Of a stretch of DNA of 64,000 bases, positions 21,187-47,644 are shown piece by piece. Each line of letters starts with the position of its first letter. Position 1 is the stretch's first letter. This DNA is from Hirudinaria manillensis (Eukaryota > Annelida > Clitellata > Hirudinida > Hirudinidae). A program made the position numbers and the translations under genes. The notes beneath the pieces were generated by a model that made no database searches, was not told the DNA's origin, and saw only the letters and a list, made by a program, of their open reading frames with translations. The DNA lies in contig CM067528.1 of assembly GCA_034509925.1 (NCBI GenBank), positions 6,740,001 through 6,804,000 on the forward strand, read 5' to 3'.

Positions 21187-21905
21187 ATTAATTTGTTAGA
21201 TGAAAGGAAATTTGACTTAGATGGTCCAGATGGATTCAAATATCATTGGCACGATGTCAAAAAATCAAAAAATTCAATTTTTTATTAAATGTGGCTCAGT
21301 GATAGTCTGGCTTGACATTTCCTGATGTTCTTCCGAACTTGTGTTCTTAGAGGGGAAGCAAAATATGTTCCAACACTTGAGCAGCATCTGTTTAAATCAT
21401 GTTTCAAATTTGGAAATGAAAGAGTCCAGCAGGACAATATCCCTCTACACACAACAAGATCAACCAAACTTTTTTCCAGGAAAGGAATTTGCAGGTTCTC
21501 AAGTGGCCATCTCGCTCTCCAGACTTGAACCCCATCGAAAACGTGTGGGGATTTCTTGCCAGGAAAATATATTGTAATGGCAAGCAATGTTCCAGTGTTC
21601 AAGAGCTGAAAGACTTTTTGGAAAAGGCCTGAAACCTTTTCCGGATTCATTAAAAAACAGAATTAAAGAGTTAATTAATAAGGAGACAAAATTCATTATT
21701 GACTTCGATATAAATCATAATTTAAAATTTTAAATCTAATATAATTTAAAATTTATTTTCCATTCTTTGTTGATGTTTATCTCTGCACAATAAATTTGAT
21801 ATATCTGTAAGACTATTGTATTTTAGTATATCCTGTAAAAAAACGGTTTACATAGTTCCACTACTTGGAATGACATTGTCAAGATACATGTGTATCTGTA
21901 TTTGT
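21187..21905 (+). mobile_element. Tc1/mariner-like transposon fragment
   Basis: The plus strand reads as a broken Tc1-type DDE transposase. DERKFDLDGPDGFKYHW at about 21200 matches the conserved block around the first catalytic Asp. QQDNIPLHTTRS at about 21430 corresponds to the second Asp block. WPSRSPDLNPIENVWG at about 21505 contains the conserved S-P-D-L-N-P-I-E-N motif, and helices after it are still recognisable. Stops and frameshifts show it is inactive. It interrupts sequence that is continuous at 18730-18755 in the other copy of the segmental duplication, so it probably inserted there. No terminal inverted repeats were identified, so the ends are approximate. Confidence 0.75.
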
Positions 21906-29581: not shown

Positions 29582-29789
29582 GAGAGCAGATATGCTGCCG
29601 AGGTTTCTCGCTAAAGCAGTGGTTCTTGTCAGGTTCCACCACTTTCGCTTTAATCAAATTGTCCTTCCACAAGTTTTTGAAGACTTGCAGAGCAGCCTCG
29701 TCCTTGCCTTCTTCTAAAAAGTCGTTGTGGACGTCAGAGGCCACTTCGTCGATTATCGACATGAACAATTCGTAATCCGAACCCGCCAT
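29582..29789 (-). pseudogene. Truncated TFIIA-like copy 0
   Basis: Only the first 68 or so codons of the gene remain, up to the H-I-C-S equivalent of residues 66-69; the frame then runs into unrelated flanking sequence and stops. The promoter and leader are complete, so a short N-terminal fragment could still be transcribed. Residue 66 is His here, against Lys or Gln elsewhere, and the surrounding bases are closest to subtype B. Confidence 0.85.
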
Positions 29790-30140
29790 ATCGTGCCGTA
29801 AACTGTAAGCGAGAGAGAGAGAGAGAGCGTGCCGTTCGAACGAGGACCGAGTGCAGAATGACTTTGCGATCGAATTTCCTACTTATATAGGCTTCGGAAC
29901 AATAGACCCGATGCGTGCAGCTGCATGCGCCAGCTCGAGTTGCGCGCGGCTTTGAATAATTAATCGCGCCATGTTTTTTTTCGCGCCGTAATACTATTTT
30001 TTTTTATTTATTTGTTTTAAGCTCAAATAAAAAATAACGACGAATTATATGATTAAATTTAAAGACCCCAAAAAATAGAACACTAGTTTTGCATTTGAAC
30101 ACTGTTTATATTTAATAAAAATATTTACAACAGCTTAAGT

Positions 30141-30938
30141 TTACATGCCTGCTTCGCCTTTGGCCGATCGAAAAATTTGTTCTTTGCCCTTCAGAAGAAG
30201 TATTCCGGATTTCAAGTCCATCTTGAAATGTCGTGCAATTTTATTGACCTTGTCAAACTTGCAAATCATGACATTTTCGCACTCGAATAATTCTTCGTAA
30301 TCGGAAAGCTCCGGAGCATTCTCTACGTCATCTATGTCAATAACTTCTTCGTCGTCATCGTCGTCGTTATCATCGTCTCCTTCGAAAGGGGGAGAAGCTT
30401 CGTCATGTTCGCCGATTTGATAGTCCCCATCGTCGTCATCATCATCATCGTCGTCGTCGTCGTCTATATATTGGATATCCGACGGTCCGTCAACCTGTCC
30501 GATCCTTCGTTTCGGATTCGGTGGCTTGATTCTCAAGTTCAGGAGCGCAGACGACTGCGGTCGAGAGGACGAAATTTGGGGAATTTCGGCTTTCTTAGGC
30601 TCTTGACTGACGACTTTCGCTTCTGGCACCGGGGCAGGACCACGGACTTTAACGTTCGGCGCCGGAATCCTATAATTTAATAGGAGTTCCAACGTATTCG
30701 TATTTTTCGGTTCAGCGACCGGTACGACTCGAGAGCAGATTTTCTGCCGAGGTTTCTCGCTAAAGCAGTGGTTCTTGTCAGGTTCCACCACTTTCGCTTT
30801 AATCAAATTGTCCTTCCACAAGTTTTTGAAGACTTGCAGAGCAGCCTCGTCCTTGCCTTCTTCTAAAAAGTCGTTGTGGACGTCAGAGGCCACTTCGTCG
30901 ATTATCGACATGAACAATTCGTAATCCGAACCCGCCAT
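30141..30938 (-). CDS. TFIIA alpha/beta-like protein, array copy 1 (type A)
   Basis: A 265-residue intronless ORF. Residues 4-50 (YELFMSIIDEVASDVHNDFL and following, ending W-K-D-N-L-I-K-A-K) match the N-terminal helical domain of the TFIIA large subunit. Residues 213-265 (YEELFECENVMICKFDKV, then FKMDLKSGILLLKGKEQIF) match its C-terminal beta-barrel part. TFIIA stabilises TBP on the TATA box. The middle is Pro-rich, then has Q148-V-D-G-P-S-D, which fits the taspase-1 cleavage motif of TFIIA precursors, followed by 12 Asp (159-170) and further acidic runs. Total length is shorter than the 370 or so residues of usual TFIIA large subunits because the Gln-rich centre is missing. Type A markers are K66, V72, V74 and V149. 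The lack of introns suggests origin by retroposition followed by amplification; germline use, as for the ALF/GTF2A1L paralogue, is only a guess. Confidence 0.92.
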   Translation of the reverse strand: MAGSDYELFMSIIDEVASDVHNDFLEEGKDEAALQVFKNLWKDNLIKAKVVEPDKNHCFSEKPRQKICSRVVPVAEPKNTNTLELLLNYRIPAPNVKVRGPAPVPEAKVVSQEPKKAEIPQISSSRPQSSALLNLRIKPPNPKRRIGQVDGPSDIQYIDDDDDDDDDDDDGDYQIGEHDEASPPFEGDDDNDDDDDEEVIDIDDVENAPELSDYEELFECENVMICKFDKVNKIARHFKMDLKSGILLLKGKEQIFRSAKGEAGM

Positions 30939-31004
30939 ATCGTGCCGTAAACTGTAAGCGAGAGAGAGAGAGAGAGCGTGCCGTTCGAACGAGGACCGAG
31001 TGCA

Positions 31005-31038
31005 GAATGACTTTGCGATCGAATTTCCTACTTATATA
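31005..31038 (-). promoter_or_regulatory. Core promoter of array copy 1 (TATA plus initiator)
   Basis: On the minus strand TATATAAG (31031-31038) lies 30 bases ahead of the A of an initiator-like TCATTC (31005-31010), the ideal spacing for a TATA/Inr promoter. The leader of about 70 bases contains a CT tract just before the ATG. The same arrangement is present in every unit. In units 1-11, and in the truncated copy, a near-palindrome centred on TGCAGCTGCA and a GCGCATGC motif lie further upstream. Confidence 0.7.
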
Positions 31039-31289
31039 GGCTTCGGAACAATAGACCCGATGCGTGCAGCTGCATGCGCCAGCTCGAGTTGCGCGCGGCT
31101 TTGAATAATTAATCGCGCCATGTTTTTTTTCGCGCCGTAATACTATTTTTTTTTATTTATTTGTTTTAAGCTCAAATAAAAAATAACGACGAATTATATG
31201 ATTAAATTTAAAGACCCCAAAAAATAGAACACTAGTTTTGCATTTGAACACTGTTTATATTTAATAAAAATATTTACAACAGCTTAAGT

Positions 31290-32087
31290 TTACATGCCTG
31301 CTTCGCCTTTGGCCGATCGAAAAATTTGTTCTTTGCCCTTCAGAAGAAGTATTCCGGATTTCAAGTCCATCTTGAAATGTCGTGCAATTTTATTGACCTT
31401 GTCAAACTTGCAAATCATGACATTTTCGCACTCGAATAATTCTTCGTAATCGGAAAGCTCCGGAGCATTCTCTACGTCATCTATGTCAATCACTTCTTCG
31501 TCGTCATCGTCGTCGTTATCATCGTCTCCTTCGAAAGGGGGAGAAGCTTCGTCATGTTCGCCGATTTGATAGTCCCCATCGTCGTCATCATCATCATCGT
31601 CGTCGTCGTCGTCTATATATTGGATATCCGACGGTCCGTCAAACTGTCCGATCCTTCGTTTCGGATTCGGTGGCTTGATTCTCAAGTTCAGGAGCGCAGA
31701 CGACTGCGGTCGAGAGGACGAAATTTGGGGAATTTCGGCTTTCTTAGGCTCTTGACTGACGACTTTCGCTTCTGGCACCGGGGCAGGACCACGGACTTTA
31801 ACGTTCGGCGCCGGAATCCTATAATTTAATAGGAGTTCCAACGTATTCGTATTTTTCGGTTCAGCGATCGGTGCGACTCGAGAGCAGATTTGCTGCCGAG
31901 GTTTCTCGCTAAAGCAGTGGTTCTTGTCAGGTTCCACCACTTTCGCTTTAATCAAATTGTCCTTCCACAAGTTTTTGAAGACTTGCAGAGCAGCCTCGTC
32001 CTTGCCTTCTTCTAAAAAGTCGTTGTGGACGTCAGAGGCCACTTCGTCGATTATCGACATGAACAATTCGTAATCCGAACCCGCCAT
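31290..32087 (-). CDS. TFIIA alpha/beta-like protein, array copy 2 (type B)
   Basis: 265 residues. It differs from copy 1 at four positions: Q66, A72, I74 and F149. The last makes the putative taspase site Q-F-D-G instead of Q-V-D-G. A synonymous marker also separates the types in the codons for residues 200-202. Promoter, leader and 3' end are as in copy 1. Confidence 0.92.
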   Translation of the reverse strand: MAGSDYELFMSIIDEVASDVHNDFLEEGKDEAALQVFKNLWKDNLIKAKVVEPDKNHCFSEKPRQQICSRVAPIAEPKNTNTLELLLNYRIPAPNVKVRGPAPVPEAKVVSQEPKKAEIPQISSSRPQSSALLNLRIKPPNPKRRIGQFDGPSDIQYIDDDDDDDDDDDDGDYQIGEHDEASPPFEGDDDNDDDDDEEVIDIDDVENAPELSDYEELFECENVMICKFDKVNKIARHFKMDLKSGILLLKGKEQIFRSAKGEAGM

Positions 32088-32439
32088 ATCGTGCCGTAAA
32101 CTGTAAGCGAGAGAGAGAGAGAGAGCGTGCCGTTCGAACGAGGACCGAGTGCAGAATGACTTTGCGATCGAATTTCCTACTTATATAGGCTTCGGAACAA
32201 TAGACCCGATGCGTGCAGCTGCATGCGCCAGCTCGAGTTGCGCGCGGCTTTGAATAATTAATCGCGCCATGTTTTTTTTCGCGCCGTAATACTATTTTTT
32301 TTTTATTTATTTGTTTTAAGCTCAAATAAAAAATAACGACGAATTATATGATTAAATTTAAAGACCCCAAAAAATAGAACACTAGTTTTGCATTTGAACA
32401 CTGTTTATATTTAATAAAAATATTTACAACAGCTTAAGT

Positions 32440-33237
32440 TTACATGCCTGCTTCGCCTTTGGCCGATCGAAAAATTTGTTCTTTGCCCTTCAGAAGAAGT
32501 ATTCCGGATTTCAAGTCCATCTTGAAATGTCGTGCAATTTTATTGACCTTGTCAAACTTGCAAATCATGACATTTTCGCACTCGAATAATTCTTCGTAAT
32601 CGGAAAGCTCCGGAGCATTCTCTACGTCATCTATGTCAATAACTTCTTCGTCGTCATCGTCGTCGTTATCATCGTCTCCTTCGAAAGGGGGAGAAGCTTC
32701 GTCATGTTCGCCGATTTGATAGTCCCCATCGTCGTCATCATCATCATCGTCGTCGTCGTCGTCTATATATTGGATATCCGACGGTCCGTCAACCTGTCCG
32801 ATCCTTCGTTTCGGATTCGGTGGCTTGATTCTCAAGTTCAGGAGCGCAGACGACTGCGGTCGAGAGGACGAAATTTGGGGAATTTCGGCTTTCTTAGGCT
32901 CTTGACTGACGACTTTCGCTTCTGGCACCGGGGCAGGACCACGGACTTTAACGTTCGGCGCCGGAATCCTATAATTTAATAGGAGTTCCAACGTATTCGT
33001 ATTTTTCGGTTCAGCGATCGGTGCGACTCGAGAGCAGATTTGCTGCCGAGGTTTCTCGCTAAAGCAGTGGTTCTTGTCAGGTTCCACCACTTTCGCTTTA
33101 ATCAAATTGTCCTTCCACAAGTTTTTGAAGACTTGCAGAGCAGCCTCGTCCTTGCCTTCTTCTAAAAAGTCGTTGTGGACGTCAGAGGCCACTTCGTCGA
33201 TTATCGACATGAACAATTCGTAATCCGAACCCGCCAT
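32440..33237 (-). CDS. TFIIA alpha/beta-like protein, array copy 3 (B/A hybrid)
   Basis: 265 residues. The 5' half carries type B markers (Q66, A72, I74) while the 3' half is type A (V149 and the type A synonymous marker). The switch lies between codons 74 and 149, consistent with unequal crossover or gene conversion inside the ORF. Confidence 0.92.
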   Translation of the reverse strand: MAGSDYELFMSIIDEVASDVHNDFLEEGKDEAALQVFKNLWKDNLIKAKVVEPDKNHCFSEKPRQQICSRVAPIAEPKNTNTLELLLNYRIPAPNVKVRGPAPVPEAKVVSQEPKKAEIPQISSSRPQSSALLNLRIKPPNPKRRIGQVDGPSDIQYIDDDDDDDDDDDDGDYQIGEHDEASPPFEGDDDNDDDDDEEVIDIDDVENAPELSDYEELFECENVMICKFDKVNKIARHFKMDLKSGILLLKGKEQIFRSAKGEAGM

Positions 33238-33589
33238 ATCGTGCCGTAAACTGTAAGCGAGAGAGAGAGAGAGAGCGTGCCGTTCGAACGAGGACCGAGT
33301 GCAGAATGACTTTGCGATCGAATTTCCTACTTATATAGGCTTCGGAACAATAGACCCGATGCGTGCAGCTGCATGCGCCAGCTCGAGTTGCGCGCGGCTT
33401 TGAATAATTAATCGCGCCATGTTTTTTTTCGCGCCGTAATACTATTTTTTTTTTATTTATTTGTTTTAAGCTCAAATAAAAAATAACGACGAATTATATG
33501 ATTAAATTTAAAGACCCCAAAAAATAGAACACTAGTTTTGCATTTGAACACTGTTTATATTTAATAAAAATATTTACAACAGCTTAAGT

Positions 33590-34387
33590 TTACATGCCTG
33601 CTTCGCCTTTGGCCGATCGAAAAATTTGTTCTTTGCCCTTCAGAAGAAGTATTCCGGATTTCAAGTCCATCTTGAAATGTCGTGCAATTTTATTGACCTT
33701 GTCAAACTTGCAAATCATGACATTTTCGCACTCGAATAATTCTTCGTAATCGGAAAGCTCCGGAGCATTCTCTACGTCATCTATGTCAATCACTTCTTCG
33801 TCGTCATCGTCGTCGTTATCATCGTCTCCTTCGAAAGGGGGAGAAGCTTCGTCATGTTCGCCGATTTGATAGTCCCCATCGTCGTCATCATCATCATCGT
33901 CGTCGTCGTCGTCTATATATTGGATATCCGACGGTCCGTCAAACTGTCCGATCCTTCGTTTCGGATTCGGTGGCTTGATTCTCAAGTTCAGGAGCGCAGA
34001 CGACTGCGGTCGAGAGGACGAAATTTGGGGAATTTCGGCTTTCTTAGGCTCTTGACTGACGACTTTCGCTTCTGGCACCGGGGCAGGACCACGGACTTTA
34101 ACGTTCGGCGCCGGAATCCTATAATTTAATAGGAGTTCCAACGTATTCGTATTTTTCGGTTCAGCGATCGGTGCGACTCGAGAGCAGATTTGCTGCCGAG
34201 GTTTCTCGCTAAAGCAGTGGTTCTTGTCAGGTTCCACCACTTTCGCTTTAATCAAATTGTCCTTCCACAAGTTTTTGAAGACTTGCAGAGCAGCCTCGTC
34301 CTTGCCTTCTTCTAAAAAGTCGTTGTGGACGTCAGAGGCCACTTCGTCGATTATCGACATGAACAATTCGTAATCCGAACCCGCCAT
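33590..34387 (-). CDS. TFIIA alpha/beta-like protein, array copy 4 (type B)
   Basis: 265 residues with type B markers (Q66, A72, I74, F149). The CT tract in the leader is longer by one dinucleotide than in most copies. Confidence 0.92.
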   Translation of the reverse strand: MAGSDYELFMSIIDEVASDVHNDFLEEGKDEAALQVFKNLWKDNLIKAKVVEPDKNHCFSEKPRQQICSRVAPIAEPKNTNTLELLLNYRIPAPNVKVRGPAPVPEAKVVSQEPKKAEIPQISSSRPQSSALLNLRIKPPNPKRRIGQFDGPSDIQYIDDDDDDDDDDDDGDYQIGEHDEASPPFEGDDDNDDDDDEEVIDIDDVENAPELSDYEELFECENVMICKFDKVNKIARHFKMDLKSGILLLKGKEQIFRSAKGEAGM

Positions 34388-34740
34388 ATCGTGCCGTAAA
34401 CTGTAAGCGAGAGAGAGAGAGAGAGAGCGTGCCGTTCGAACGAGGACCGAGTGCAGAATGACTTTGCGATCGAATTTCCTACTTATATAGGCTTCGGAAC
34501 AATAGACCCGATGCGTGCAGCTGCATGCGCCAGCTCGAGTTGCGCGCGGCTTTGAATAATTAATCGCGCCATGTTTTTTTTCGCGCCGTAATACTATTTT
34601 TTTTTATTTATTTGTTTTAAGCTCAAATAAAAAATAACGACGAATTATATGATTAAATTTAAAGACCCCAAAAAATAGAACACTAGTTTTGCATTTGAAC
34701 ACTGTTTATATTTAATAAAAATATTTACAACAGCTTAAGT

Positions 34741-35538
34741 TTACATGCCTGCTTCGCCTTTGGCCGATCGAAAAATTTGTTCTTTGCCCTTCAGAAGAAG
34801 TATTCCGGATTTCAAGTCCATCTTGAAATGTCGTGCAATTTTATTGACCTTGTCAAACTTGCAAATCATGACATTTTCGCACTCGAATAATTCTTCGTAA
34901 TCGGAAAGCTCCGGAGCATTCTCTACGTCATCTATGTCAATAACTTCTTCGTCGTCATCGTCGTCGTTATCATCGTCTCCTTCGAAAGGGGGAGAAGCTT
35001 CGTCATGTTCGCCGATTTGATAGTCCCCATCGTCGTCATCATCATCATCGTCGTCGTCGTCGTCTATATATTGGATATCCGACGGTCCGTCAACCTGTCC
35101 GATCCTTCGTTTCGGATTCGGTGGCTTGATTCTCAAGTTCAGGAGCGCAGACGACTGCGGTCGAGAGGACGAAATTTGGGGAATTTCGGCTTTCTTAGGC
35201 TCTTGACTGACGACTTTCGCTTCTGGCACCGGGGCAGGACCACGGACTTTAACGTTCGGCGCCGGAATCCTATAATTTAATAGGAGTTCCAACGTATTCG
35301 TATTTTTCGGTTCAGCGACCGGTACGACTCGAGAGCAGATTTTCTGCCGAGGTTTCTCGCTAAAGCAGTGGTTCTTGTCAGGTTCCACCACTTTCGCTTT
35401 AATCAAATTGTCCTTCCACAAGTTTTTGAAGACTTGCAGAGCAGCCTCGTCCTTGCCTTCTTCTAAAAAGTCGTTGTGGACGTCAGAGGCCACTTCGTCG
35501 ATTATCGACATGAACAATTCGTAATCCGAACCCGCCAT
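34741..35538 (-). CDS. TFIIA alpha/beta-like protein, array copy 5 (type A)
   Basis: 265 residues with type A markers (K66, V72, V74, V149). It is the first of two adjacent type A units, which break the A/B alternation. Confidence 0.92.
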   Translation of the reverse strand: MAGSDYELFMSIIDEVASDVHNDFLEEGKDEAALQVFKNLWKDNLIKAKVVEPDKNHCFSEKPRQKICSRVVPVAEPKNTNTLELLLNYRIPAPNVKVRGPAPVPEAKVVSQEPKKAEIPQISSSRPQSSALLNLRIKPPNPKRRIGQVDGPSDIQYIDDDDDDDDDDDDGDYQIGEHDEASPPFEGDDDNDDDDDEEVIDIDDVENAPELSDYEELFECENVMICKFDKVNKIARHFKMDLKSGILLLKGKEQIFRSAKGEAGM

Positions 35539-35890
35539 ATCGTGCCGTAAACTGTAAGCGAGAGAGAGAGAGAGAGCGTGCCGTTCGAACGAGGACCGAG
35601 TGCAGAATGACTTTGCGATCGAATTTCCTACTTATATAGGCTTCGGAACAATAGACCCGATGCGTGCAGCTGCATGCGCCAGCTCGAGTTGCGCGCGGCT
35701 TTGAATAATTAATCGCGCCATGTTTTTTTTCGCGCCGTAATACTATTTTTTTTTTATTTATTTGTTTTAAGCTCAAATAAAAAATAACGACGAATTATAT
35801 GATTAAATTTAAAGACCCCAAAAAATAGAACACTAGTTTTGCATTTGAACACTGTTTATATTTAATAAAAATATTTACAACAGCTTAAGT

Positions 35891-36688
35891 TTACATGCCT
35901 GCTTCGCCTTTGGCCGATCGAAAAATTTGTTCTTTGCCCTTCAGAAGAAGTATTCCGGATTTCAAGTCCATCTTGAAATGTCGTGCAATTTTATTGACCT
36001 TGTCAAACTTGCAAATCATGACATTTTCGCACTCGAATAATTCTTCGTAATCGGAAAGCTCCGGAGCATTCTCTACGTCATCTATGTCAATAACTTCTTC
36101 GTCGTCATCGTCGTCGTTATCATCGTCTCCTTCGAAAGGGGGAGAAGCTTCGTCATGTTCGCCGATTTGATAGTCCCCATCGTCGTCATCATCATCATCG
36201 TCGTCGTCGTCGTCTATATATTGGATATCCGACGGTCCGTCAACCTGTCCGATCCTTCGTTTCGGATTCGGTGGCTTGATTCTCAAGTTCAGGAGCGCAG
36301 ACGACTGCGGTCGAGAGGACGAAATTTGGGGAATTTCGGCTTTCTTAGGCTCTTGACTGACGACTTTCGCTTCTGGCACCGGGGCAGGACCACGGACTTT
36401 AACGTTCGGCGCCGGAATCCTATAATTTAATAGGAGTTCCAACGTATTCGTATTTTTCGGTTCAGCGACCGGTACGACTCGAGAGCAGATTTTCTGCCGA
36501 GGTTTCTCGCTAAAGCAGTGGTTCTTGTCAGGTTCCACCACTTTCGCTTTAATCAAATTGTCCTTCCACAAGTTTTTGAAGACTTGCAGAGCAGCCTCGT
36601 CCTTGCCTTCTTCTAAAAAGTCGTTGTGGACGTCAGAGGCCACTTCGTCGATTATCGACATGAACAATTCGTAATCCGAACCCGCCAT
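35891..36688 (-). CDS. TFIIA alpha/beta-like protein, array copy 6 (type A)
   Basis: 265 residues, same predicted protein as copy 5. The pair probably arose by duplication or conversion of a single unit. Confidence 0.92.
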   Translation of the reverse strand: MAGSDYELFMSIIDEVASDVHNDFLEEGKDEAALQVFKNLWKDNLIKAKVVEPDKNHCFSEKPRQKICSRVVPVAEPKNTNTLELLLNYRIPAPNVKVRGPAPVPEAKVVSQEPKKAEIPQISSSRPQSSALLNLRIKPPNPKRRIGQVDGPSDIQYIDDDDDDDDDDDDGDYQIGEHDEASPPFEGDDDNDDDDDEEVIDIDDVENAPELSDYEELFECENVMICKFDKVNKIARHFKMDLKSGILLLKGKEQIFRSAKGEAGM

Positions 36689-37039
36689 ATCGTGCCGTAA
36701 ACTGTAAGCGAGAGAGAGAGAGAGAGCGTGCCGTTCGAACGAGGACCGAGTGCAGAATGACTTTGCGATCGAATTTCCTACTTATATAGGCTTCGGAACA
36801 ATAGACCCGATGCGTGCAGCTGCATGCGCCAGCTCGAGTTGCGCGCGGCTTTGAATAATTAATCGCGCCATGTTTTTTTTCGCGCCGTAATACTATTTTT
36901 TTTTATTTATTTGTTTTAAGCTCAAATAAAAAATAACGACGAATTATATGATTAAATTTAAAGACCCCAAAAAATAGAACACTAGTTTTGCATTTGAACA
37001 CTGTTTATATTTAATAAAAATATTTACAACAGCTTAAGT

Positions 37040-37837
37040 TTACATGCCTGCTTCGCCTTTGGCCGATCGAAAAATTTGTTCTTTGCCCTTCAGAAGAAGT
37101 ATTCCGGATTTCAAGTCCATCTTGAAATGTCGTGCAATTTTATTGACCTTGTCAAACTTGCAAATCATGACATTTTCGCACTCGAATAATTCTTCGTAAT
37201 CGGAAAGCTCCGGAGCATTCTCTACGTCATCTATGTCAATCACTTCTTCGTCGTCATCGTCGTCGTTATCATCGTCTCCTTCGAAAGGGGGAGAAGCTTC
37301 GTCATGTTCGCCGATTTGATAGTCCCCATCGTCGTCATCATCATCATCGTCGTCGTCGTCGTCTATATATTGGATATCCGACGGTCCGTCAAACTGTCCG
37401 ATCCTTCGTTTCGGATTCGGTGGCTTGATTCTCAAGTTCAGGAGCGCAGACGACTGCGGTCGAGAGGACGAAATTTGGGGAATTTCGGCTTTCTTAGGCT
37501 CTTGACTGACGACTTTCGCTTCTGGCACCGGGGCAGGACCACGGACTTTAACGTTCGGCGCCGGAATCCTATAATTTAATAGGAGTTCCAACGTATTCGT
37601 ATTTTTCGGTTCAGCGATCGGTGCGACTCGAGAGCAGATTTGCTGCCGAGGTTTCTCGCTAAAGCAGTGGTTCTTGTCAGGTTCCACCACTTTCGCTTTA
37701 ATCAAATTGTCCTTCCACAAGTTTTTGAAGACTTGCAGAACAGCCTCGTCCTTGCCTTCTTCTAAAAAGTCGTTGTGGACGTCAGAGGCCACTTCGTCGA
37801 TTATCGACATGAACAATTCGTAATCCGAACCCGCCAT
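37040..37837 (-). CDS. TFIIA alpha/beta-like protein, array copy 7 (type B, A33V)
   Basis: 265 residues with type B markers. It has a private Ala-to-Val change at residue 33 in the N-terminal helical domain (E-A-V-L-Q), the only such missense difference seen among the full copies outside the A/B markers. Confidence 0.92.
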   Translation of the reverse strand: MAGSDYELFMSIIDEVASDVHNDFLEEGKDEAVLQVFKNLWKDNLIKAKVVEPDKNHCFSEKPRQQICSRVAPIAEPKNTNTLELLLNYRIPAPNVKVRGPAPVPEAKVVSQEPKKAEIPQISSSRPQSSALLNLRIKPPNPKRRIGQFDGPSDIQYIDDDDDDDDDDDDGDYQIGEHDEASPPFEGDDDNDDDDDEEVIDIDDVENAPELSDYEELFECENVMICKFDKVNKIARHFKMDLKSGILLLKGKEQIFRSAKGEAGM

Positions 37838-38188
37838 ATCGTGCCGTAAACTGTAAGCGAGAGAGAGAGAGAGAGCGTGCCGTTCGAACGAGGACCGAGT
37901 GCAGAATGACTTTGCGATCGAATTTCCTACTTATATAGGCTTCGGAACAATAGACCCGATGCGTGCAGCTGCATGCGCCAGCTCGAGTTGCGCGCGGCTT
38001 TGAATAATTAATCGCGCCATGTTTTTTTTCGCGCCGTAATACTATTTTTTTTTATTTATTTGTTTTAAGCTCAAATAAAAAATAACGACGAATTATATGA
38101 TTAAATTTAAAGACCCCAAAAAATAGAACACTAGTTTTGCATTTGAACACTGTTTATATTTAATAAAAATATTTACAACAGCTTAAGT

Positions 38189-38986
38189 TTACATGCCTGC
38201 TTCGCCTTTGGCCGATCGAAAAATTTGTTCTTTGCCCTTCAGAAGAAGTATTCCGGATTTCAAGTCCATCTTGAAATGTCGTGCAATTTTATTGACCTTG
38301 TCAAACTTGCAAATCATGACATTTTCGCACTCGAATAATTCTTCGTAATCGGAAAGCTCCGGAGCATTCTCTACGTCATCTATGTCAATAACTTCTTCGT
38401 CGTCATCGTCGTCGTTATCATCGTCTCCTTCGAAAGGGGGAGAAGCTTCGTCATGTTCGCCGATTTGATAGTCCCCATCGTCGTCATCATCATCATCGTC
38501 GTCGTCGTCGTCTATATATTGGATATCCGACGGTCCGTCAACCTGTCCGATCCTTCGTTTCGGATTCGGTGGCTTGATTCTCAAGTTCAGGAGCGCAGAC
38601 GACTGCGGTCGAGAGGACGAAATTTGGGGAATTTCGGCTTTCTTAGGCTCTTGACTGACGACTTTCGCTTCTGGCACCGGGGCAGGACCACGGACTTTAA
38701 CGTTCGGCGCCGGAATCCTATAATTTAATAGGAGTTCCAACGTATTCGTATTTTTCGGTTCAGCGACCGGTACGACTCGAGAGCAGATTTTCTGCCGAGG
38801 TTTCTCGCTAAAGCAGTGGTTCTTGTCAGGTTCCACCACTTTCGCTTTAATCAAATTGTCCTTCCACAAGTTTTTGAAGACTTGCAGAGCAGCCTCGTCC
38901 TTGCCTTCTTCTAAAAAGTCGTTGTGGACGTCAGAGGCCACTTCGTCGATTATCGACATGAACAATTCGTAATCCGAACCCGCCAT
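38189..38986 (-). CDS. TFIIA alpha/beta-like protein, array copy 8 (type A)
   Basis: 265 residues, type A. A longer CT tract in the leader happens to leave the frame open upstream of the ATG, but that extension runs back through the TATA box and is not expected to be translated, so the usual M-A-G-S start is kept. Confidence 0.92.
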   Translation of the reverse strand: MAGSDYELFMSIIDEVASDVHNDFLEEGKDEAALQVFKNLWKDNLIKAKVVEPDKNHCFSEKPRQKICSRVVPVAEPKNTNTLELLLNYRIPAPNVKVRGPAPVPEAKVVSQEPKKAEIPQISSSRPQSSALLNLRIKPPNPKRRIGQVDGPSDIQYIDDDDDDDDDDDDGDYQIGEHDEASPPFEGDDDNDDDDDEEVIDIDDVENAPELSDYEELFECENVMICKFDKVNKIARHFKMDLKSGILLLKGKEQIFRSAKGEAGM

Positions 38987-39340
38987 ATCGTGCCGTAAAC
39001 TGTAAGCGAGAGAGAGAGAGAGAGAGCGTGCCGTTCGAACGAGGACCGAGTGCAGAATGACTTTGCGATCGAATTTCCTACTTATATAGGCTTCGGAACA
39101 ATAGACCCGATGCGTGCAGCTGCATGCGCCAGCTCGAGTTGCGCGCGGCTTTGAATAATTAATCGCGCCATGTTTTTTTTCGCGCCGTAATACTATTTTT
39201 TTTTTATTTATTTGTTTTAAGCTCAAATAAAAAATAACGACGAATTATATGATTAAATTTAAAGACCCCAAAAAATAGAACACTAGTTTTGCATTTGAAC
39301 ACTGTTTATATTTAATAAAAATATTTACAACAGCTTAAGT

Positions 39341-40138
39341 TTACATGCCTGCTTCGCCTTTGGCCGATCGAAAAATTTGTTCTTTGCCCTTCAGAAGAAG
39401 TATTCCGGATTTCAAGTCCATCTTGAAATGTCGTGCAATTTTATTGACCTTGTCAAACTTGCAAATCATGACATTTTCGCACTCGAATAATTCTTCGTAA
39501 TCGGAAAGCTCCGGAGCATTCTCTACGTCATCTATGTCAATCACTTCTTCGTCGTCATCGTCGTCGTTATCATCGTCTCCTTCGAAAGGGGGAGAAGCTT
39601 CGTCATGTTCGCCGATTTGATAGTCCCCATCGTCGTCATCATCATCATCGTCGTCGTCGTCGTCTATATATTGGATATCCGACGGTCCGTCAAACTGTCC
39701 GATCCTTCGTTTCGGATTCGGTGGCTTGATTCTCAAGTTCAGGAGCGCAGACGACTGCGGTCGAGAGGACGAAATTTGGGGAATTTCGGCTTTCTTAGGC
39801 TCTTGACTGACGACTTTCGCTTCTGGCACCGGGGCAGGACCACGGACTTTAACGTTCGGCGCCGGAATCCTATAATTTAATAGGAGTTCCAACGTATTCG
39901 TATTTTTCGGTTCAGCGATCGGTGCGACTCGAGAGCAGATTTGCTGCCGAGGTTTCTCGCTAAAGCAGTGGTTCTTGTCAGGTTCCACCACTTTCGCTTT
40001 AATCAAATTGTCCTTCCACAAGTTTTTGAAGACTTGCAGAGCAGCCTCGTCCTTGCCTTCTTCTAAAAAGTCGTTGTGGACGTCAGAGGCCACTTCGTCG
40101 ATTATCGACATGAACAATTCGTAATCCGAACCCGCCAT
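39341..40138 (-). CDS. TFIIA alpha/beta-like protein, array copy 9 (type B)
   Basis: 265 residues with type B markers including F149 in the putative taspase site. Confidence 0.92.
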   Translation of the reverse strand: MAGSDYELFMSIIDEVASDVHNDFLEEGKDEAALQVFKNLWKDNLIKAKVVEPDKNHCFSEKPRQQICSRVAPIAEPKNTNTLELLLNYRIPAPNVKVRGPAPVPEAKVVSQEPKKAEIPQISSSRPQSSALLNLRIKPPNPKRRIGQFDGPSDIQYIDDDDDDDDDDDDGDYQIGEHDEASPPFEGDDDNDDDDDEEVIDIDDVENAPELSDYEELFECENVMICKFDKVNKIARHFKMDLKSGILLLKGKEQIFRSAKGEAGM

Positions 40139-40489
40139 ATCGTGCCGTAAACTGTAAGCGAGAGAGAGAGAGAGAGCGTGCCGTTCGAACGAGGACCGAG
40201 TGCAGAATGACTTTGCGATCGAATTTCCTACTTATATAGGCTTCGGAACAATAGACCCGATGCGTGCAGCTGCATGCGCCAGCTCGAGTTGCGCGCGGCT
40301 TTGAATAATTAATCGCGCCATGTTTTTTTTCGCGCCGTAATACTATTTTTTTTTATTTATTTGTTTTAAGCTCAAATAAAAAATAACGACGAATTATATG
40401 ATTAAATTTAAAGACCCCAAAAAATAGAACACTAGTTTTGCATTTGAACACTGTTTATATTTAATAAAAATATTTACAACAGCTTAAGT

Positions 40490-41287
40490 TTACATGCCTG
40501 CTTCGCCTTTGGCCGATCGAAAAATTTGTTCTTTGCCCTTCAGAAGAAGTATTCCGGATTTCAAGTCCATCTTGAAATGTCGTGCAATTTTATTGACCTT
40601 GTCAAACTTGCAAATCATGACATTTTCGCACTCGAATAATTCTTCGTAATCGGAAAGCTCCGGAGCATTCTCTACGTCATCTATGTCAATAACTTCTTCG
40701 TCGTCATCGTCGTCGTTATCATCGTCTCCTTCGAAAGGGGGAGAAGCTTCGTCATGTTCGCCGATTTGATAGTCCCCATCGTCGTCATCATCATCATCGT
40801 CGTCGTCGTCGTCTATATATTGGATATCCGACGGTCCGTCAACCTGTCCGATCCTTCGTTTCGGATTCGGTGGCTTGATTCTCAAGTTCAGGAGCGCAGA
40901 CGACTGCGGTCGAGAGGACGAAATTTGGGGAATTTCGGCTTTCTTAGGCTCTTGACTGACGACTTTCGCTTCTGGCACCGGGGCAGGACCACGGACTTTA
41001 ACGTTCGGCGCCGGAATCCTATAATTTAATAGGAGTTCCAACGTATTCGTATTTTTCGGTTCAGCGACCGGTACGACTCGAGAGCAGATTTTCTGCCGAG
41101 GTTTCTCGCTAAAGCAGTGGTTCTTGTCAGGTTCCACCACTTTCGCTTTAATCAAATTGTCCTTCCACAAGTTTTTGAAGACTTGCAGAGCAGCCTCGTC
41201 CTTGCCTTCTTCTAAAAAGTCGTTGTGGACGTCAGAGGCCACTTCGTCGATTATCGACATGAACAATTCGTAATCCGAACCCGCCAT
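40490..41287 (-). CDS. TFIIA alpha/beta-like protein, array copy 10 (type A)
   Basis: 265 residues, same predicted protein as the other type A copies. Confidence 0.92.
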   Translation of the reverse strand: MAGSDYELFMSIIDEVASDVHNDFLEEGKDEAALQVFKNLWKDNLIKAKVVEPDKNHCFSEKPRQKICSRVVPVAEPKNTNTLELLLNYRIPAPNVKVRGPAPVPEAKVVSQEPKKAEIPQISSSRPQSSALLNLRIKPPNPKRRIGQVDGPSDIQYIDDDDDDDDDDDDGDYQIGEHDEASPPFEGDDDNDDDDDEEVIDIDDVENAPELSDYEELFECENVMICKFDKVNKIARHFKMDLKSGILLLKGKEQIFRSAKGEAGM

Positions 41288-41640
41288 ATCGTGCCGTAAA
41301 CTGTAAGCGAGAGAGAGAGAGAGAGCGTGCCGTTCGAACGAGGACCGAGTGCAGAATGACTTTGCGATCGAATTTCCTACTTATATAGGCTTCGGAACAA
41401 TAGACCCGATGCGTGCAGCTGCATGCGCCAGCTCGAGTTGCGCGCGGCTTTGAATAATTAATCGCGCCATGTTTTTTTTCGCGCCGTAATACTATTTTTT
41501 TTTTTATTTATTTGTTTTAAGCTCAAATAAAAAATAACGACGAATTATATGATTAAATTTAAAGACCCCAAAAAATAGAACACTAGTTTTGCATTTGAAC
41601 ACTGTTTATATTTAATAAAAATATTTACAACAGCTTAAGT

Positions 41641-42438
41641 TTACATGCCTGCTTCGCCTTTGGCCGATCGAAAAATTTGTTCTTTGCCCTTCAGAAGAAG
41701 TATTCCGGATTTCAAGTCCATCTTGAAATGTCGTGCAATTTTATTGACCTTGTCAAACTTGCAAATCATGACATTTTCGCACTCGAATAATTCTTCGTAA
41801 TCGGAAAGCTCCGGAGCATTCTCTACGTCATCTATGTCAATCACTTCTTCGTCGTCATCGTCGTCGTTATCATCGTCTCCTTCGAAAGGGGGAGAAGCTT
41901 CGTCATGTTCGCCGATTTGATAGTCCCCATCGTCGTCATCATCATCATCGTCGTCGTCGTCGTCTATATATTGGATATCCGACGGTCCGTCAAACTGTCC
42001 GATCCTTCGTTTCGGATTCGGTGGCTTGATTCTCAAGTTCAGGAGCGCAGACGACTGCGGTCGAGAGGACGAAATTTGGGGAATTTCGGCTTTCTTAGGC
42101 TCTTGACTGACGACTTTCGCTTCTGGCACCGGGGCAGGACCACGGACTTTAACGTTCGGCGCCGGAATCCTATAATTTAATAGGAGTTCCAACGTATTCG
42201 TATTTTTCGGTTCAGCGATCGGTGCGACTCGAGAGCAGATTTGCTGCCGAGGTTTCTCGCTAAAGCAGTGGTTCTTGTCAGGTTCCACCACTTTCGCTTT
42301 AATCAAATTGTCCTTCCACAAGTTTTTGAAGACTTGCAGAGCAGCCTCGTCCTTGCCTTCTTCTAAAAAGTCGTTGTGGACGTCAGAGGCCACTTCGTCG
42401 ATTATCGACATGAACAATTCGTAATCCGAACCCGCCAT
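41641..42438 (-). CDS. TFIIA alpha/beta-like protein, array copy 11 (type B)
   Basis: 265 residues, type B. The T-run in the spacer upstream of copy 10 (about 41491) is the longest noticed in the array. Confidence 0.92.
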   Translation of the reverse strand: MAGSDYELFMSIIDEVASDVHNDFLEEGKDEAALQVFKNLWKDNLIKAKVVEPDKNHCFSEKPRQQICSRVAPIAEPKNTNTLELLLNYRIPAPNVKVRGPAPVPEAKVVSQEPKKAEIPQISSSRPQSSALLNLRIKPPNPKRRIGQFDGPSDIQYIDDDDDDDDDDDDGDYQIGEHDEASPPFEGDDDNDDDDDEEVIDIDDVENAPELSDYEELFECENVMICKFDKVNKIARHFKMDLKSGILLLKGKEQIFRSAKGEAGM

Positions 42439-42789
42439 ATCGTGCCGTAAACTGTAAGCGAGAGAGAGAGAGAGAGCGTGCCGTTCGAACGAGGACCGAG
42501 TGCAGAATGACTTTGCGATCGAATTTCCTACTTATATAGGCTTCGGAACAATAGACCCGATGCGTGCAGCTGCATGCGCCAGCTCGAGTTGCGCGCGGCT
42601 TTGAATAATTAATCGCGCCATGTTTTTTTTCGCGCCGTAATACTATTTTTTTTTATTTATTTGTTTTAAGCTCAAATAAAAAATAACGACGAATTATATG
42701 ATTAAATTTAAAGACCCCAAAAAATAGAACACTAGTTTTGCATTTGAACACTGTTTATATTTAATAAAAATATTTACAACAGCTTAAGT

Positions 42790-43581
42790 TTACATGCCTG
42801 CTTCGCCTTTGGCCGATCGAAAAATTTGTTCTTTGCCCTTCAGAAGAAGTATTCCGGATTTCAAGTCCATCTTGAAATGTCGTGCAATTTTATTGACCTT
42901 GTCAAACTTGCAAATCATGACATTTTCGCACTCGAATAATTCTTCGTAATCGGAAAGCTCCGGAGCATTCTCTACGTCATCTATGTCAATAACTTCTTCG
43001 TCGTCATCGTCGTCGTTATCATCGTCTCCTTCGAAAGGGGGAGAAGCTTCGTCATGTTCGCCGATTTGATAGTCCCCATCGTCGTCATCATCATCATCGT
43101 CGTCGTCTATATATTGGATATCCGACGGTCCGTCAACCTGTCCGATCCTTCGTTTCGGATTCGGTGGCTTGATTCTCAAGTTCAGGAGCGCAGACGACTG
43201 CGGTCGAGAGGACGAAATTTGGGGAATTTCGGCTTTCTTAGGCTCTTGACTGACGACTTTCGCTTCTGGCACCGGGGCAGGACCACGGACTTTAACGTTC
43301 GGCGCCGGAATCCTATAATTTAATAGGAGTTCCAACGTATTCGTATTTTTCGGTTCAGCGACCGGTACGACTCGAGAGCAGATTTTCTGCCGAGGTTTCT
43401 CGCTAAAGCAGTGGTTCTTGTCAGGTTCCACCACTTTCGCTTTAATCAAATTGTCCTTCCACAAGTTTTTGAAGACTTGCAGAGCAGCCTCGTCCTTGCC
43501 TTCTTCTAAAAAGTCGTTGTGGACGTCAGAGGCCACTTCGTCGATTATCGACATGAACAATTCGTAATCCGAACCCGCCAT
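42790..43581 (-). CDS. TFIIA alpha/beta-like protein, array copy 12 (type A, short Asp run)
   Basis: 263 residues; the Asp run is two codons shorter than elsewhere. It is the copy at the 5' edge of the array with respect to transcription. Its TATA box and initiator are intact, but the shared sequence stops 16 bases further upstream, so it lacks the palindromic upstream region of the other units and sits next to unrelated DNA. Confidence 0.92.
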   Translation of the reverse strand: MAGSDYELFMSIIDEVASDVHNDFLEEGKDEAALQVFKNLWKDNLIKAKVVEPDKNHCFSEKPRQKICSRVVPVAEPKNTNTLELLLNYRIPAPNVKVRGPAPVPEAKVVSQEPKKAEIPQISSSRPQSSALLNLRIKPPNPKRRIGQVDGPSDIQYIDDDDDDDDDDGDYQIGEHDEASPPFEGDDDNDDDDDEEVIDIDDVENAPELSDYEELFECENVMICKFDKVNKIARHFKMDLKSGILLLKGKEQIFRSAKGEAGM

Positions 43582-43647
43582 ATCGTGCCGTAAACTGTAA
43601 GCGAGAGAGAGAGAGAGAGCGTGCCGTTCGAACGAGGACCGAGTGCA

Positions 43648-43681
43648 GAATGACTTTGCGATCGAATTTCCTACTTATATA
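43648..43681 (-). promoter_or_regulatory. Core promoter of array copy 12, without the shared distal region
   Basis: TATATAAG at 43674-43681 and the initiator TCATTC at 43648-43653 are retained with the same 30-base spacing. Array similarity ends at 43697, so distal elements are replaced by unrelated sequence. Confidence 0.65.
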
Positions 43682-43697
43682 GGCTTCGGAACAATAG

Positions 43698-44761
43698 TCT
43701 TTGTGCTATTTTGTCTTTATGGACCCAACATTTCCCGCCGGCTGTGAGAGTCATTTGGTGGCCTTGTTATGCCGGTCACTAATTCCTGGACTTGAGGGAT
43801 TGCTAATGCTCTTAATGCCTTCTTTATGTCGCACGCGACATGCTTTCATTTTATAAACTGGGTGGTTCTCTTTGGCCTTGTTATGTCGATCGACTCCATC
43901 TTTGTATCGTATAGCTCATGAAAGCTCTCAGTGGCTTCTTCACATGGTGTACTTCATACAAAAATTCTTATGAATTTCTTTATAGAGTCATCTATATAGA
44001 AATTTTTCGAAAAGGCCCGCAGTTCAAATCGCTTTGCGAGTCCGCGGTCGTCCCATTTCTCACGACAATACAACGTATCTCGGCCAATGATGTGGATCAT
44101 TCATACCGGAGACCGACGGCTTTCCCCGGCTTTCCTACAGACACTTTTTAAGACTTCTCCTGCCTCGTTAAGTGCCAGATCCAGAATGAAGTCGCTTCTG
44201 CGGCCTCAGACATAGTACACCCCATAGCTATTCCAACTTCTACAGGCACCCACAGTGCAGTGTACGTCTTTGTTGAAAACCTCATCATGAACCCGTTAAA
44301 TTATTCCTTTTGAACTGAAATGTCCTTGTACTGATTAGACATCACGAACTCCGTGAGCCTCGTTCCATGATAGAGAAAAATATTTTCCCTTTAACATTCA
44401 TTTAGTTGGTTTGAATTTATCCATTTGTAAACCAAAGGACATTATTCCTGTGTATAGTCTTTCACTCGTGCTCGCTACCAGTTGATTATTGACGCCCATT
44501 TGCAGTGTTCCTAATCAATTAAGTCTCACATAAAGGGGTTCCATATCTGCATTCCATATAGTCTAACTGAACTTTTATCTTACATAAAACTTTGCAAAAT
44601 CATCCTAACATTGTTTAGGCTGACGACAACACGATTGAAGATTCCAATCACTGAATGTCTTTATTGAACCTAAGAAAATGTGACGTTCCAAGCTGAAAAT
44701 GTGTTGACGATCAGGTGACTCAGAACTTTGCCTAAAGTTCACATGGTCGAATAACTCGTTC
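43698..44761. other. Unassigned flank between the array and the SLC6 duplication
   Basis: Less AT-rich than most of the window. Several stretches on the minus strand read open for 20-40 codons (near 43700-43850 and 44000-44200) and CATAACAAGGCCA occurs more than once, hinting at an old mobile element, but no family could be named. Confidence 0.3.
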
Positions 44762-45216
44762 GGTGAGAAAACAAGCGAACATTTGAACAGAATCTAACAA
44801 CTAGAAAGATAGATCTTGGCTAGTTTATTTTGTTCAATTAAAAAAAAAAAAGTAGAAATAAACTTCAAAGACTCGTGAACGCGTTAGGATGAAATTAGGC
44901 TATCGATCATGATCCAACAACAAGTATTATTACTCCTGCCTGCATTGTGAAAAGCAAGTGCTTACAATAACGACGACTACAACAACACGACATCACCGAG
45001 TAAACAGTCGACTAACGAAGTATTCAAACCTCCAGAAAGCAACAACAACAACGACGACGACGACGACACGAGAACTAATCCTCGCATGACTGAAACATCG
45101 ACACTTCTTTGGAAAGAAGAGGTAAAATCACAAACAATAACAACAACACAAACAATACATCAAAACAACAGAAAAATAAAAGAGGAGGAATACGTGAAGG
45201 ACTTCTTTGTTGTTGC

Positions 45217-45253
<37 letters not shown>

Positions 45254-47155
45254 GTTGTTGTTGTTGTTGCTATTTTAGTTACTATTGTTTCAAGCCGTTT
45301 CTTTAGCATCGGCTGCGGTATCCTTGAGATTGGCAGTGTCCGAACTGATTTCAATTATTTCAGCTGCAATCTTGGAGGACTTGTTGAGTCTGAGGCTGTC
45401 GATCCTCGCGCGATCTGCTGGTCCCCAGTCTCTCGTTGGTTTAGAAACTTCTTTCAATCTCTGTTTGGATCGATCACCATAATCACGTCGTTTAAAAAAA
45501 TAATTAAAAATAAATAAATAATAAACAGATAGATAAATAAACAAACAAATAACTAACTAATAAGTAAATAAAGGGATTGACTTACAATTCATTCTATTAG
45601 ATTCATTGAATAATTATTCTAACCTCCAGAAGAGATCCTTTGACTTTAACTAATTGGCATATGGCAATGACTGGTATAGGGATAATGGAGCTGAGCGAGA
45701 AGACAAGGCCGAGTAAAATTGCCCAGGTCGGGTACTTGTACTTTCCATATGACACGGGAGTATGCATAACGACGTTCGTTATGAACAGGAACTAAGGAAG
45801 CGATATTGGCAATTACCAGTACAGCTATGACATAGTTGCATCTAATAATACTTCTGTGCTTGTTATTCATGGTTCTATTTCATGTAGTGAAGGCAATAAA
45901 TTAAATAACCTTCACTTTATGTATAATAATATTAACTAAAATTATTATTATTATTATTATTATTATTATTGTTGTTGTTTTTGTTATTATCGCTGCATCT
46001 AGACTATTGTGAAGATTGGAAAATAATCTGGTCACGCTGAGGAATAAAAGCGATCAAAAAACATATCCAGTAAGGAAATAAATTAATATTTAAAGATTAA
46101 TAAGTTTAAAATTTAATGTTTAAAAATAGTAATAGAAACTGATCGTTTCATTAAGTTAGTACTTTTGAAGTGGCCTTTAATTTTTGCAATGTTTAAAATT
46201 GTTTGTCTTCAACTAGAATCGTACAAAAGACGTCCTTCTATGGACCTTATGGATCTTAGCAACATCAGTAATAAATGATATTGGCAATCAGATGATCTGT
46301 TGTCCTGATTTGAAGTAACGAAAAGGTTCGTACCAATATGAGTGTGGGGGTGATGAATCTCCAACAGTAGCACCACCATTTCGTCGGTGTCCAGCCCAGC
46401 ATGAGAGTCATGTCTTGATAAAAATTCGAGCAACCTGAGTGATGAAGCGAAGTTAGAATGAAATAAACTAATCAAACTTCTCATTGACAATGCATCTCCA
46501 TCCACTTAGAAACCCGATCGAGCACCTTAGACTATTAGATATCCAACAGCCGTGATGGATGCTGAAATGATGGCTATTACCACCACAGACATACACAGAT
46601 ACAACCCATTGAGTCAACGTGTCATGAGACAGATTCAAGATTTGATGATTACTCATCTGTGGTATGACTTCAAGTTACAATAACAACTACTAACTTTATA
46701 ATTACATTACGCGAGCCCTATTTTTTTTGCATTTCTTTGATAATTAATCATCTTTTGACAATTGAATCATCTACATACCAAGCAAAATGCTTTTAATAAG
46801 AAACAAAACGTGACAAAAGTAATTGAAATAAAGAATTATTTGAACCCACCGTAAACCCAGGCTATAGCAATGCACTCCAACAACGACAGAATCATCAGAG
46901 AGAACGTTGAACAATACCAATCCAGAATTTGGAAAAAGTAAATACCACCCTTGAAATAAAAATAGCAACGCTTTCTTCACTAACAGATTTGAACCTCTAA
47001 CGAAATGTTTTTCAAATTATTTTGAATTTCCTCATTTAATATTCACCTAATAAAAATTGGTGAAAGTCAATTAAAATCTCTAATATATAAAAAAAATAAC
47101 ATTTAATCTCAAAATGACAGACCCTGGTAACACACGCTAGTCCAAACATGAGTTC
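44762..47155. repeat. Tandem duplication, unit 1 (SLC6 3' end)
   Basis: This 2394-bp segment matches 47156-49543 almost perfectly. The differences seen are lengths of TTA runs. The GTTC at 44758-44761, 47152-47155 and 49540-49543 is shared by both edges and the junction, so the duplication probably used 4 bp of microhomology. The right edge cuts inside an SLC6 exon. Confidence 0.93.
45290..46949 (-). other. Second set of the last four SLC6 exons
   Basis: Exons 46850-46949, 46334-46434, 45624-45791 and 45290-45460 repeat the four terminal exons of the SLC6 gene with intact splice sites, frame and stop. The preceding exon is only partly duplicated: its last 33 bases lie at 47123-47155, without an acceptor. 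These exons could therefore be used only by splicing from the shared exon at 49511-49639 past the nearer set. The encoded residues appear identical, so use of either set would change the 3' UTR but not the protein. They may be spare copies, alternative 3' ends or an assembly duplicate. Confidence 0.85.
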
Positions 47156-47610
47156 GGTGAGAAAACAAGCGAACATTTGAACAGAATCTAACAACTAGAA
47201 AGATAGATCTTGGCTAGTTTATTTTGTTCAATTAAAAAAAAAAAAGTAGAAATAAACTTCAAAGACTCGTGAACGCGTTAGGATGAAATTAGGCTATCGA
47301 TCATGATCCAACAACAAGTATTATTACTCCTGCCTGCATTGTGAAAAGCAAGTGCTTACAATAACGACGACTACAACAACACGACATCACCGAGTAAACA
47401 GTCGACTAACGAAGTATTCAAACCTCCAGAAAGCAACAACAACAACGACGACGACGACGACACGAGAACTAATCCTCGCATGACTGAAACATCGACACTT
47501 CTTTGGAAAGAAGAGGTAAAATCACAAACAATAACAACAACACAAACAATACATCAAAACAACAGAAAAATAAAAGAGGAGGAATACGTGAAGGACTTCT
47601 TTGTTGTTGC

Positions 47611-47644
<34 letters not shown>

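Follow-up and report, generated by a model that had tools for sequence, protein, structure and literature searches.

A head-to-tail array of genes for the large subunit of the general transcription factor TFIIA (TFIIA-L) lies in the window analysed here, a 64,000-nt stretch of the genome of the leech Hirudinaria manillensis (C3:6740001-6804000; the genome has 148,429,096 bases in 23 contigs, with 14,755,599 in contig C1). It is one of eleven gene arrays found in this genome, nine of which encode recognised transcription or DNA-binding families, seven under the same exact core promoter and two under a close variant of it. The products are TFIIA-L, TFIIA-gamma, a TBP-like protein, TFIIB, a fusion of a kinase with a TFIIB repeat, Elongin A, a homeodomain protein, two zinc-finger proteins and an unnamed basic protein. 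Together, these arrays probably constitute a co-regulated alternative module for RNA polymerase II (Pol II) initiation and elongation, amplified for dosage and most likely used in the germline or the early embryo. The sequence itself establishes the arrays, the identities of their products, the shared promoter, the presence of intron-split TFIIA-L and TFIIA-gamma genes elsewhere and the long-term constraint on the proteins.

The TFIIA-L array comprises 12 complete intronless open reading frames (ORFs) of 263-265 codons, all on the minus strand between positions 30141 and 43581 of the window, with a unit spacing of 1143-1152 bp and a total span of 14.1 kb. This agrees with the first-pass annotation of the stretch, which had described twelve near-identical complete units in head-to-tail order. 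A thirteenth copy is truncated, keeping its own promoter and about 208 nt of its ORF, and the array ends there at 29582; at the opposite edge, unit homology stops about 115 bp upstream of the ATG of the first-transcribed copy. The TATA box and initiator that had been proposed for each unit were found in all 13 copies as CTATATAA, followed after 21 nt by TCATT, and 12 of the 13 are complete and open. An A-rich tract and ATTAAA- or AATATAAA-like signals, read from the sequence on the 3' side of the stop codon, make the poly(A) element proposed for each unit plausible. With its near-identical head-to-tail units and intact genes, this is a homogenised tandem gene array.

The ten inner units differ from one another at 1-12 alignment positions per pair; the terminal units u01 and u12 were left out of this comparison because their edges join other DNA. 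The differences fall into two linked haplotypes, and copy 3 resembles a recombinant of both. Consequently, the units are young and exchange sequence. Coding changes amount to five nonsynonymous and one synonymous single-nucleotide polymorphisms and one in-frame 6-bp indel, and in the flanks, 115 nt on the 5' side of the ORF and 195 nt on the 3' side, only indels were seen. The open frames of all twelve copies, taken earlier as an argument for function, are little evidence of it, because the copies are almost identical and their coding differences few.

The assignment to the TFIIA large subunit, proposed earlier from the letters of the sequence, held in a profile search: one array copy matched Pfam PF03153 (TFIIA) with E=3.4e-18 and 67.3 bits against a cut-off of 36.2, and human TFIIA in PDB with E=1.5e-19, with residues 7-52 and 145-263 of the query aligned. 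As judged by this alignment, both the N-terminal helical and the C-terminal beta regions of TFIIA are present in the array product. All 12 complete copies contain a Taspase1-type site, QVDGPSD in seven and QFDGPSD in five; phenylalanine at the second position of the predicted site is presumably accepted. Human TFIIA is processed by Taspase1 at QVDG (PMC4513858). Across the genome, the PF03153 profile gave 21 matches (repeat counts from such genome profile searches are lower bounds), which fall on the window array, on a solitary gene and on the exons of a C1 gene that is split by introns. The intron-containing parent, whose existence the first-pass annotation had left to a genome search, is therefore the C1 gene, with exons read by eye and the site QLDGVVD. 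The third paralogue, a single intronless gene at C3:2198k, has QLDGPAD and is only 38% identical to the array product.

A reading of the TFIIA-L unit as a transposon or retroviral element was considered and rejected. Inverted repeats of at least 40 bp are absent from 26-46 kb of the window, the unit has no transposon-like ORF, and the PF03153 matches are confined to the array, the parent and the one single gene (57 of 7301 first-look candidates were scored). A DNA search with one unit returned 72 short matches, nearly all to the low-complexity stretch of Asp codons, and left the array itself unmatched; because common words are skipped, it is uninformative on copy number.

Profile searches with other components of the transcription machinery revealed further arrays. 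The N-terminal domain of TFIIA-gamma (PF02268) gave 87 matches, 83 of them in an array at C2:7857897-7922710. Of the other four, two are solitary intronless genes, also on C2, and two are parts of a C6 gene that is split by introns. Within the 80 kb examined there are 83 start sites, and 80 of the 83 encode an identical 102-aa protein; two copies differ by one residue and one edge copy is truncated inside the coding sequence. The search with PF00352 yielded 45 matches. They include 14 intronless TBP-like genes of 180 aa, arrayed at C2:12753116-12766256, as well as the intron-split TBP gene on C1, further copies on C6 and a pair of intronless genes on C8. The array protein belongs to the TBP core fold family (PF00352 E=1.3e-32; TBP in PDB E=3.1e-19). 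When it is aligned with TBP by eye, three of the four positions that we take to carry the DNA-intercalating phenylalanines differ, and by these assumed contact positions it looks like TRF2/TBPL1 and not like TBPL2.

TFIIB-related genes account for two more arrays. Among 77 matches to PF00382 are 19 intronless TFIIB genes at C10:5075328-5102985, 15 on the plus strand followed by 4 inverted on the minus strand, and a 26-gene intronless array at C8:3219606-3267813, in which a protein kinase is joined to a TFIIB repeat in a frame of 471 codons. Tested as separate pieces, the two parts of this fusion gave E=8.8e-42 for the kinase domain and E=9.3e-7 for the TFIIB repeat. DYRK1A provides the best PDB chains among the 60 matches listed for the kinase, and a description of it as CDK-like, or as a 'P-TEFb fusion', was dropped accordingly. 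The combination of a DYRK-like kinase with a TFIIB repeat is an unusual domain pairing. The TFIIF-beta profile (PF02270) gave 8 matches; two are parts of one intron-split gene on C10, and the other six are intronless genes at scattered positions (C8:552007, 601920, 709251, 1133677 and 5497413; C1:10324782).

Two observations on TBP genes outside the array were made along with these searches. Two adjacent intronless TBP paralogues lie at C8:2725505-2727597, and the second keeps phenylalanine, by eye, at all four assumed DNA-contact positions. The intron-containing TBP region is present twice, at C1:7377391 and at C15:106227 on a 180-kb contig, possibly as a retained haplotype.

The promoter common to the arrays consists of CTATATAA, 21-22 nt and TCATT. 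Genome-wide, the exact pattern has 322 matches (divided between the two strands as 53 and 269; summed from split patterns as 59 + 45 + 47 + 0 + 76, plus 95 counted per array). The reversed pattern has 32, and the expectation by chance from base composition is about 86. Nine arrays contain 298 of the 322 matches and 24 lie elsewhere; since these scattered matches do not exceed the control of 32, the excess is located in the arrays. C1 has none of the 24, and none is close to the intron-split TFIIA-gamma gene of C6. The arrays hold 13 matches for TFIIA-L, 82 for TFIIA-gamma, 14 for the TBP-like gene, 8 for the homeodomain gene, 28 for Elongin A (plus one stray copy), 28 and 47 for the zinc-finger genes on C5 and C4, 72 for the unnamed basic protein (plus one variant) and 4 for its paralogue.

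Six arrays were met through the promoter alone: those of Elongin A, the homeodomain protein, the two C2H2 zinc-finger proteins and two of the unnamed basic protein. The Elongin A-like product matches PF06881 with E=1.7e-10 and the homeodomain product its family with E=1.4e-17, and the zinc-finger proteins have 205 and 227 aa. The basic-protein arrays occupy C4:9335607-9402496, with about 72 promoter copies, and C4:9957410-9960297, with 4, in units mostly of about 750 and 967 bp; three versions of the protein were read (133, 186 and 200 aa), ending in KE[F/S]RYHPYA. Four of the six promoter-revealed arrays encode transcription or DNA-binding proteins, and this step is independent of any choice of transcription families, with the residual bias that the pattern itself was derived from transcription-factor arrays. 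Counted over all eleven arrays, nine carry the exact promoter type, and the other two, TFIIB and kinase-TFIIB, carry close variants. It was also observed that the 47-copy zinc-finger array directly adjoins the RYHPYA array in the same direction (C4:9287525-9402496).

Composition and divergence provide a view of how these arrays have evolved. In the seven arrays measured, the observed-to-expected CpG ratio is 1.40-1.65 and the GC fraction 0.40-0.50, and the corresponding values are 0.50-0.98 and 0.31-0.35 for the flanks of the window, the TFIIA-gamma flanks and the two TFIIA parent loci. The array values may reflect germline-unmethylated DNA or GC-biased conversion. The TFIIA-gamma array, with the truncated copy left out, is variable at 5 of 250 sites upstream, 3 of 309 within the coding sequence and 22 of 225 downstream, and coding and downstream variation differ significantly (Fisher p=2.4e-6). 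Over longer times, five paralogue pairs show proportions of nonsynonymous differences (pN) of 0.27-0.39 and of synonymous differences (pS) of 0.63-0.87, with synonymous divergence (dS) saturated in three, and the intronless paralogues of TFIIA-L and of TFIIA-gamma share 38-50% identity. By these measures, the arrays are young and the proteins that they encode are old and constrained. Four of the five arrays whose 3' end was seen stop inside the coding sequence of the last copy, namely TFIIA-L (window 29582), TFIIA-gamma (C2:7858k) and both zinc-finger arrays (C5:1061k and C4:9287k); the last copy of the homeodomain array has a complete ORF. The ends inside coding sequences look cut and joined at arbitrary points.

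Under the proposed mechanism, each array would have started from a retroposed or otherwise intronless copy, grown by unequal exchange and been kept alike by conversion. Their expression would be activated jointly, most likely in the germline or when the embryo begins transcription, and a high copy number would provide dosage as in the case of histone genes; the TFIIA-L and TFIIA-gamma proteins of the arrays may pair with each other. The idea of dosage or stage-specific expression, already present in the first-pass annotation, gains from the parallel arrays of TFIIA-gamma, the TBP-like protein, TFIIB, Elongin A and others under the same or a very similar promoter, and to that extent it stands. 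Mouse oocytes initiate from TATA-like promoters with sharply defined starts by means of TBPL2/TFIIA in place of TFIID, and in non-mammalian animals mutation of TBPL1 or TBPL2 affects the embryo (PMC7755920). TRF2/TLP is described as having kept its TFIIA- and TFIIB-binding residues and as not binding the TATA box stably (PMC4513858). The presence of a TRF2-like TBP paralogue in the set, the mouse precedent and the embryonic mutant phenotypes thus point to a dedicated germline or early-embryo machinery. A bolder proposal can be made only tentatively: this leech lineage may have assembled, from intronless paralogues of which many lie in arrays under a private core promoter, a second and complete-enough apparatus for Pol II promoter recognition and elongation. 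A TATA-binding paralogue such as the single intronless TBP at C8:2727k may read that promoter, in which case a burst of expression would amplify itself and activate the genome in the germline or the embryo.

Several points weigh against a co-regulated, dosage-amplified module. The stage of use and the co-expression of the arrays are deduced from the genes themselves. Variation within the TFIIA-L array carries no purifying signal, nonsynonymous changes outnumbering the single synonymous one. The 250 nt upstream of the TFIIA-gamma copies are also nearly invariant, so low variation in that array is not confined to coding sequence. Five of the 19 TFIIB copies have frames of 195, 246, 307, 318 and 362 codons in place of 331. 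The exact promoter pattern misses both the TFIIB array, which has the variant CTATATAT, and the kinase-TFIIB array, which has TTATT. The genome contains no TFIIF-beta array (TFIIE, TFIIH and the TBP-associated factors were not searched), and because TFIIF-beta has expanded as dispersed genes, part of the pre-initiation complex lies outside the array set. For the unnamed basic protein, sequence searches gave neither a named relative nor a detectable link to transcription. Finally, the profile searches covered families of the transcription machinery, and intronless arrays may be common in this genome beyond them, for example among housekeeping genes.

The most obvious competitor is passive or selfish amplification, in which intronless copies with a strong promoter multiplied by unequal exchange and conversion without any dosage function, the promoter marking no more than an expression class prone to retroposition. 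The young, nearly identical copies fit this account, as do the internal changes of TFIIA-L without purifying signal and the last copies cut inside the coding sequence in four of five arrays, which is expected of arbitrary exchange or insertion. It is nevertheless unlikely. A purely selfish array, one of the options raised in the first-pass annotation, does not account for the number of arrays that have a promoter in common and code for transcription proteins; the far lower variability of TFIIA-gamma coding sequence compared with its downstream spacer and the paralogue pairs with pN well below pS also speak against it. Inflation of one or two copies into arrays during assembly is highly improbable. 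No sign of it was seen for the arrays, units are distinguished by single-nucleotide polymorphisms and indels, and the TFIIA-L array fits within a HiFi read of mean length (18.73 kb), although the longer arrays exceed such reads (PMC10671345). The assembly is described there as comprising 13 scaffolds of 14.76-8.30 Mb, a 15,581-bp mitochondrial genome and 9 further, small scaffolds, with 147.43 Mb given as 99.22% (PMC10671345).

Other alternatives concern where the arrays would be used. They may serve sperm formation in the manner of mammalian male germ cells, with a TRF2-like protein acting together with Taspase1-cleaved TFIIA; this is a narrower form of the germline or early-embryo module and overlaps with it. 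The resemblance of the array TBP-like protein to TRF2/TBPL1 at the assumed DNA-contact positions and the retention of Q[V/F]DG in every complete TFIIA-L copy are in its favour, and TFIIA cleavage by Taspase1 is reportedly the subject, together with TRF2 in male germ cells, of a dedicated study. This restriction to sperm is doubtful, however, since oogenesis or the early embryo would fit equally well and mutants of TBPL1 and TBPL2 outside mammals are affected as embryos (PMC7755920). Use in somatic tissue of very high activity, for example in salivary glands or in those that secrete the cocoon, is improbable. Mass output generally suits tandem multicopy genes, but such tissues usually amplify their secreted products and not basal factors, and a set that includes homeodomain and zinc-finger regulators speaks for a programme of development.

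Comparison with known systems places the leech arrays among several partial parallels. GTF2A1L is a germline TFIIA paralogue whose family is known from vertebrates. TFIIA alpha/beta (GTF2A1) and GTF2A1L/ALF share with the array product the TFIIA regions at both termini, a Taspase1-type site and an acidic spacer, whereas the leech array genes are intronless, encode about 265 aa and occur as twelve tandem copies; orthology of the array to GTF2A1L is unlikely. The mouse oocyte system is built from single-copy genes and uses ordinary TFIIA. It is similar in combining a TBP paralogue with TFIIA into an alternative, germline-specific machinery for TATA-like promoters with sharp starts (PMC7755920), but the leech has separate TFIIA, TBP-like and TFIIB paralogues, each arrayed with shared promoters. 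Histone and rRNA genes likewise form homogenised head-to-tail units in which copy number supplies dosage; in the leech, by contrast, the product is basal transcription machinery and the arrays are spread over several chromosomes. Arrays of the DUX4/D4Z4 type also consist of an intronless tandem homeobox gene and are linked to early embryonic activation, whereas the leech homeodomain array is one of eleven, stands alongside general factors and is known here from its genes alone.

General transcription factors are textbook examples of low-copy, slowly evolving genes. Several of them are present here as intronless, strongly diverged paralogues in arrays of 12-83 copies under one promoter type. 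No report of tandem or expanded arrays of general transcription factors was found in the literature searched, which was mainly open-licence, with subscription journals mostly outside it, and the available main text of the leech genome paper contains neither 'TFIIA' nor 'transcription factor' (PMC10671345). Tandem arrays, germline paralogues of general transcription factors and retrogenes each have precedents; to our knowledge, their combination is new. If the arrays are co-expressed, they would represent a natural second basal transcription system in an animal, and two questions would become directly testable: whether the dosage of initiation factors can be limiting, and how a cell exchanges its initiation machinery on passing between germline, embryo and soma. 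For the stage of use, the common promoter offers a ready-made reporter.

The individual TFIIA-L copies, all on the minus strand and numbered from the edge with the truncated copy, are located as follows, each with its TATA-initiator core promoter. The truncated thirteenth copy retains only the 5' part of the coding sequence at 29582..29789, with a promoter at 29857..29890 located by pattern match (its start) and by sequence. The coding sequences of copies 1 to 11 each encode 265 aa, and their promoters were located by pattern match: copy 1 at 30141..30938 (QVDG; promoter 31006..31039), copy 2 at 31290..32087 (QFDG; 32155..32188), copy 3, the apparent haplotype recombinant, at 32440..33237 (QVDG; 33305..33338), copy 4 at 33590..34387 (QFDG; 34457..34490), copy 5 at 34741..35538 (QVDG; 35606..35639), copy 6 at 35891..36688 (QVDG; 36756..36789), copy 7, with a private A>V change, at 37040..37837 (QFDG; 37905..37938), copy 8 at 38189..38986 (QVDG; 39056..39089), copy 9 at 39341..40138 (QFDG; 40206..40239), copy 10 at 40490..41287 (QVDG; 41355..41388) and copy 11 at 41641..42438 (QFDG; 42506..42539). 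Copy 12 at 42790..43581 encodes 263 aa, with two Asp fewer and QVDG; its promoter lies at 43649..43682, next to the point where repeat homology ends.

The remainder of the window contains several smaller features. A gene with a RING-like exon, recognised by eye, occupies 17112-18387 and is present again as a tandem duplicate about 2.43 kb away at 19539-20838, with a diverged relative at 13269-14437; a Pfam search with its long second exon gave no match. Another tandem duplication, of 2.39 kb, lies at about 44760-49540, with near-identical ORFs at 45086 and 47480 amid exons that look transporter-like by eye. An RBM22-type CCCH zinc finger at 24649-24972 (PF25584 E=4.1e-17) is either an exon or a truncated copy, and a Tc1/mariner-like transposase fragment was noted by eye at 21420-21629. 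Elsewhere in the genome, a TTAGGG-type repeat is found at the start of C4, and the mitochondrial contig C23 (15,581 bases), whose first gene is cox1, has the order cox1-trnN-cox2-trnD-atp8, presumably that of annelids, with tRNAs located by ARAGORN in mitochondrial mode and the other genes by eye.

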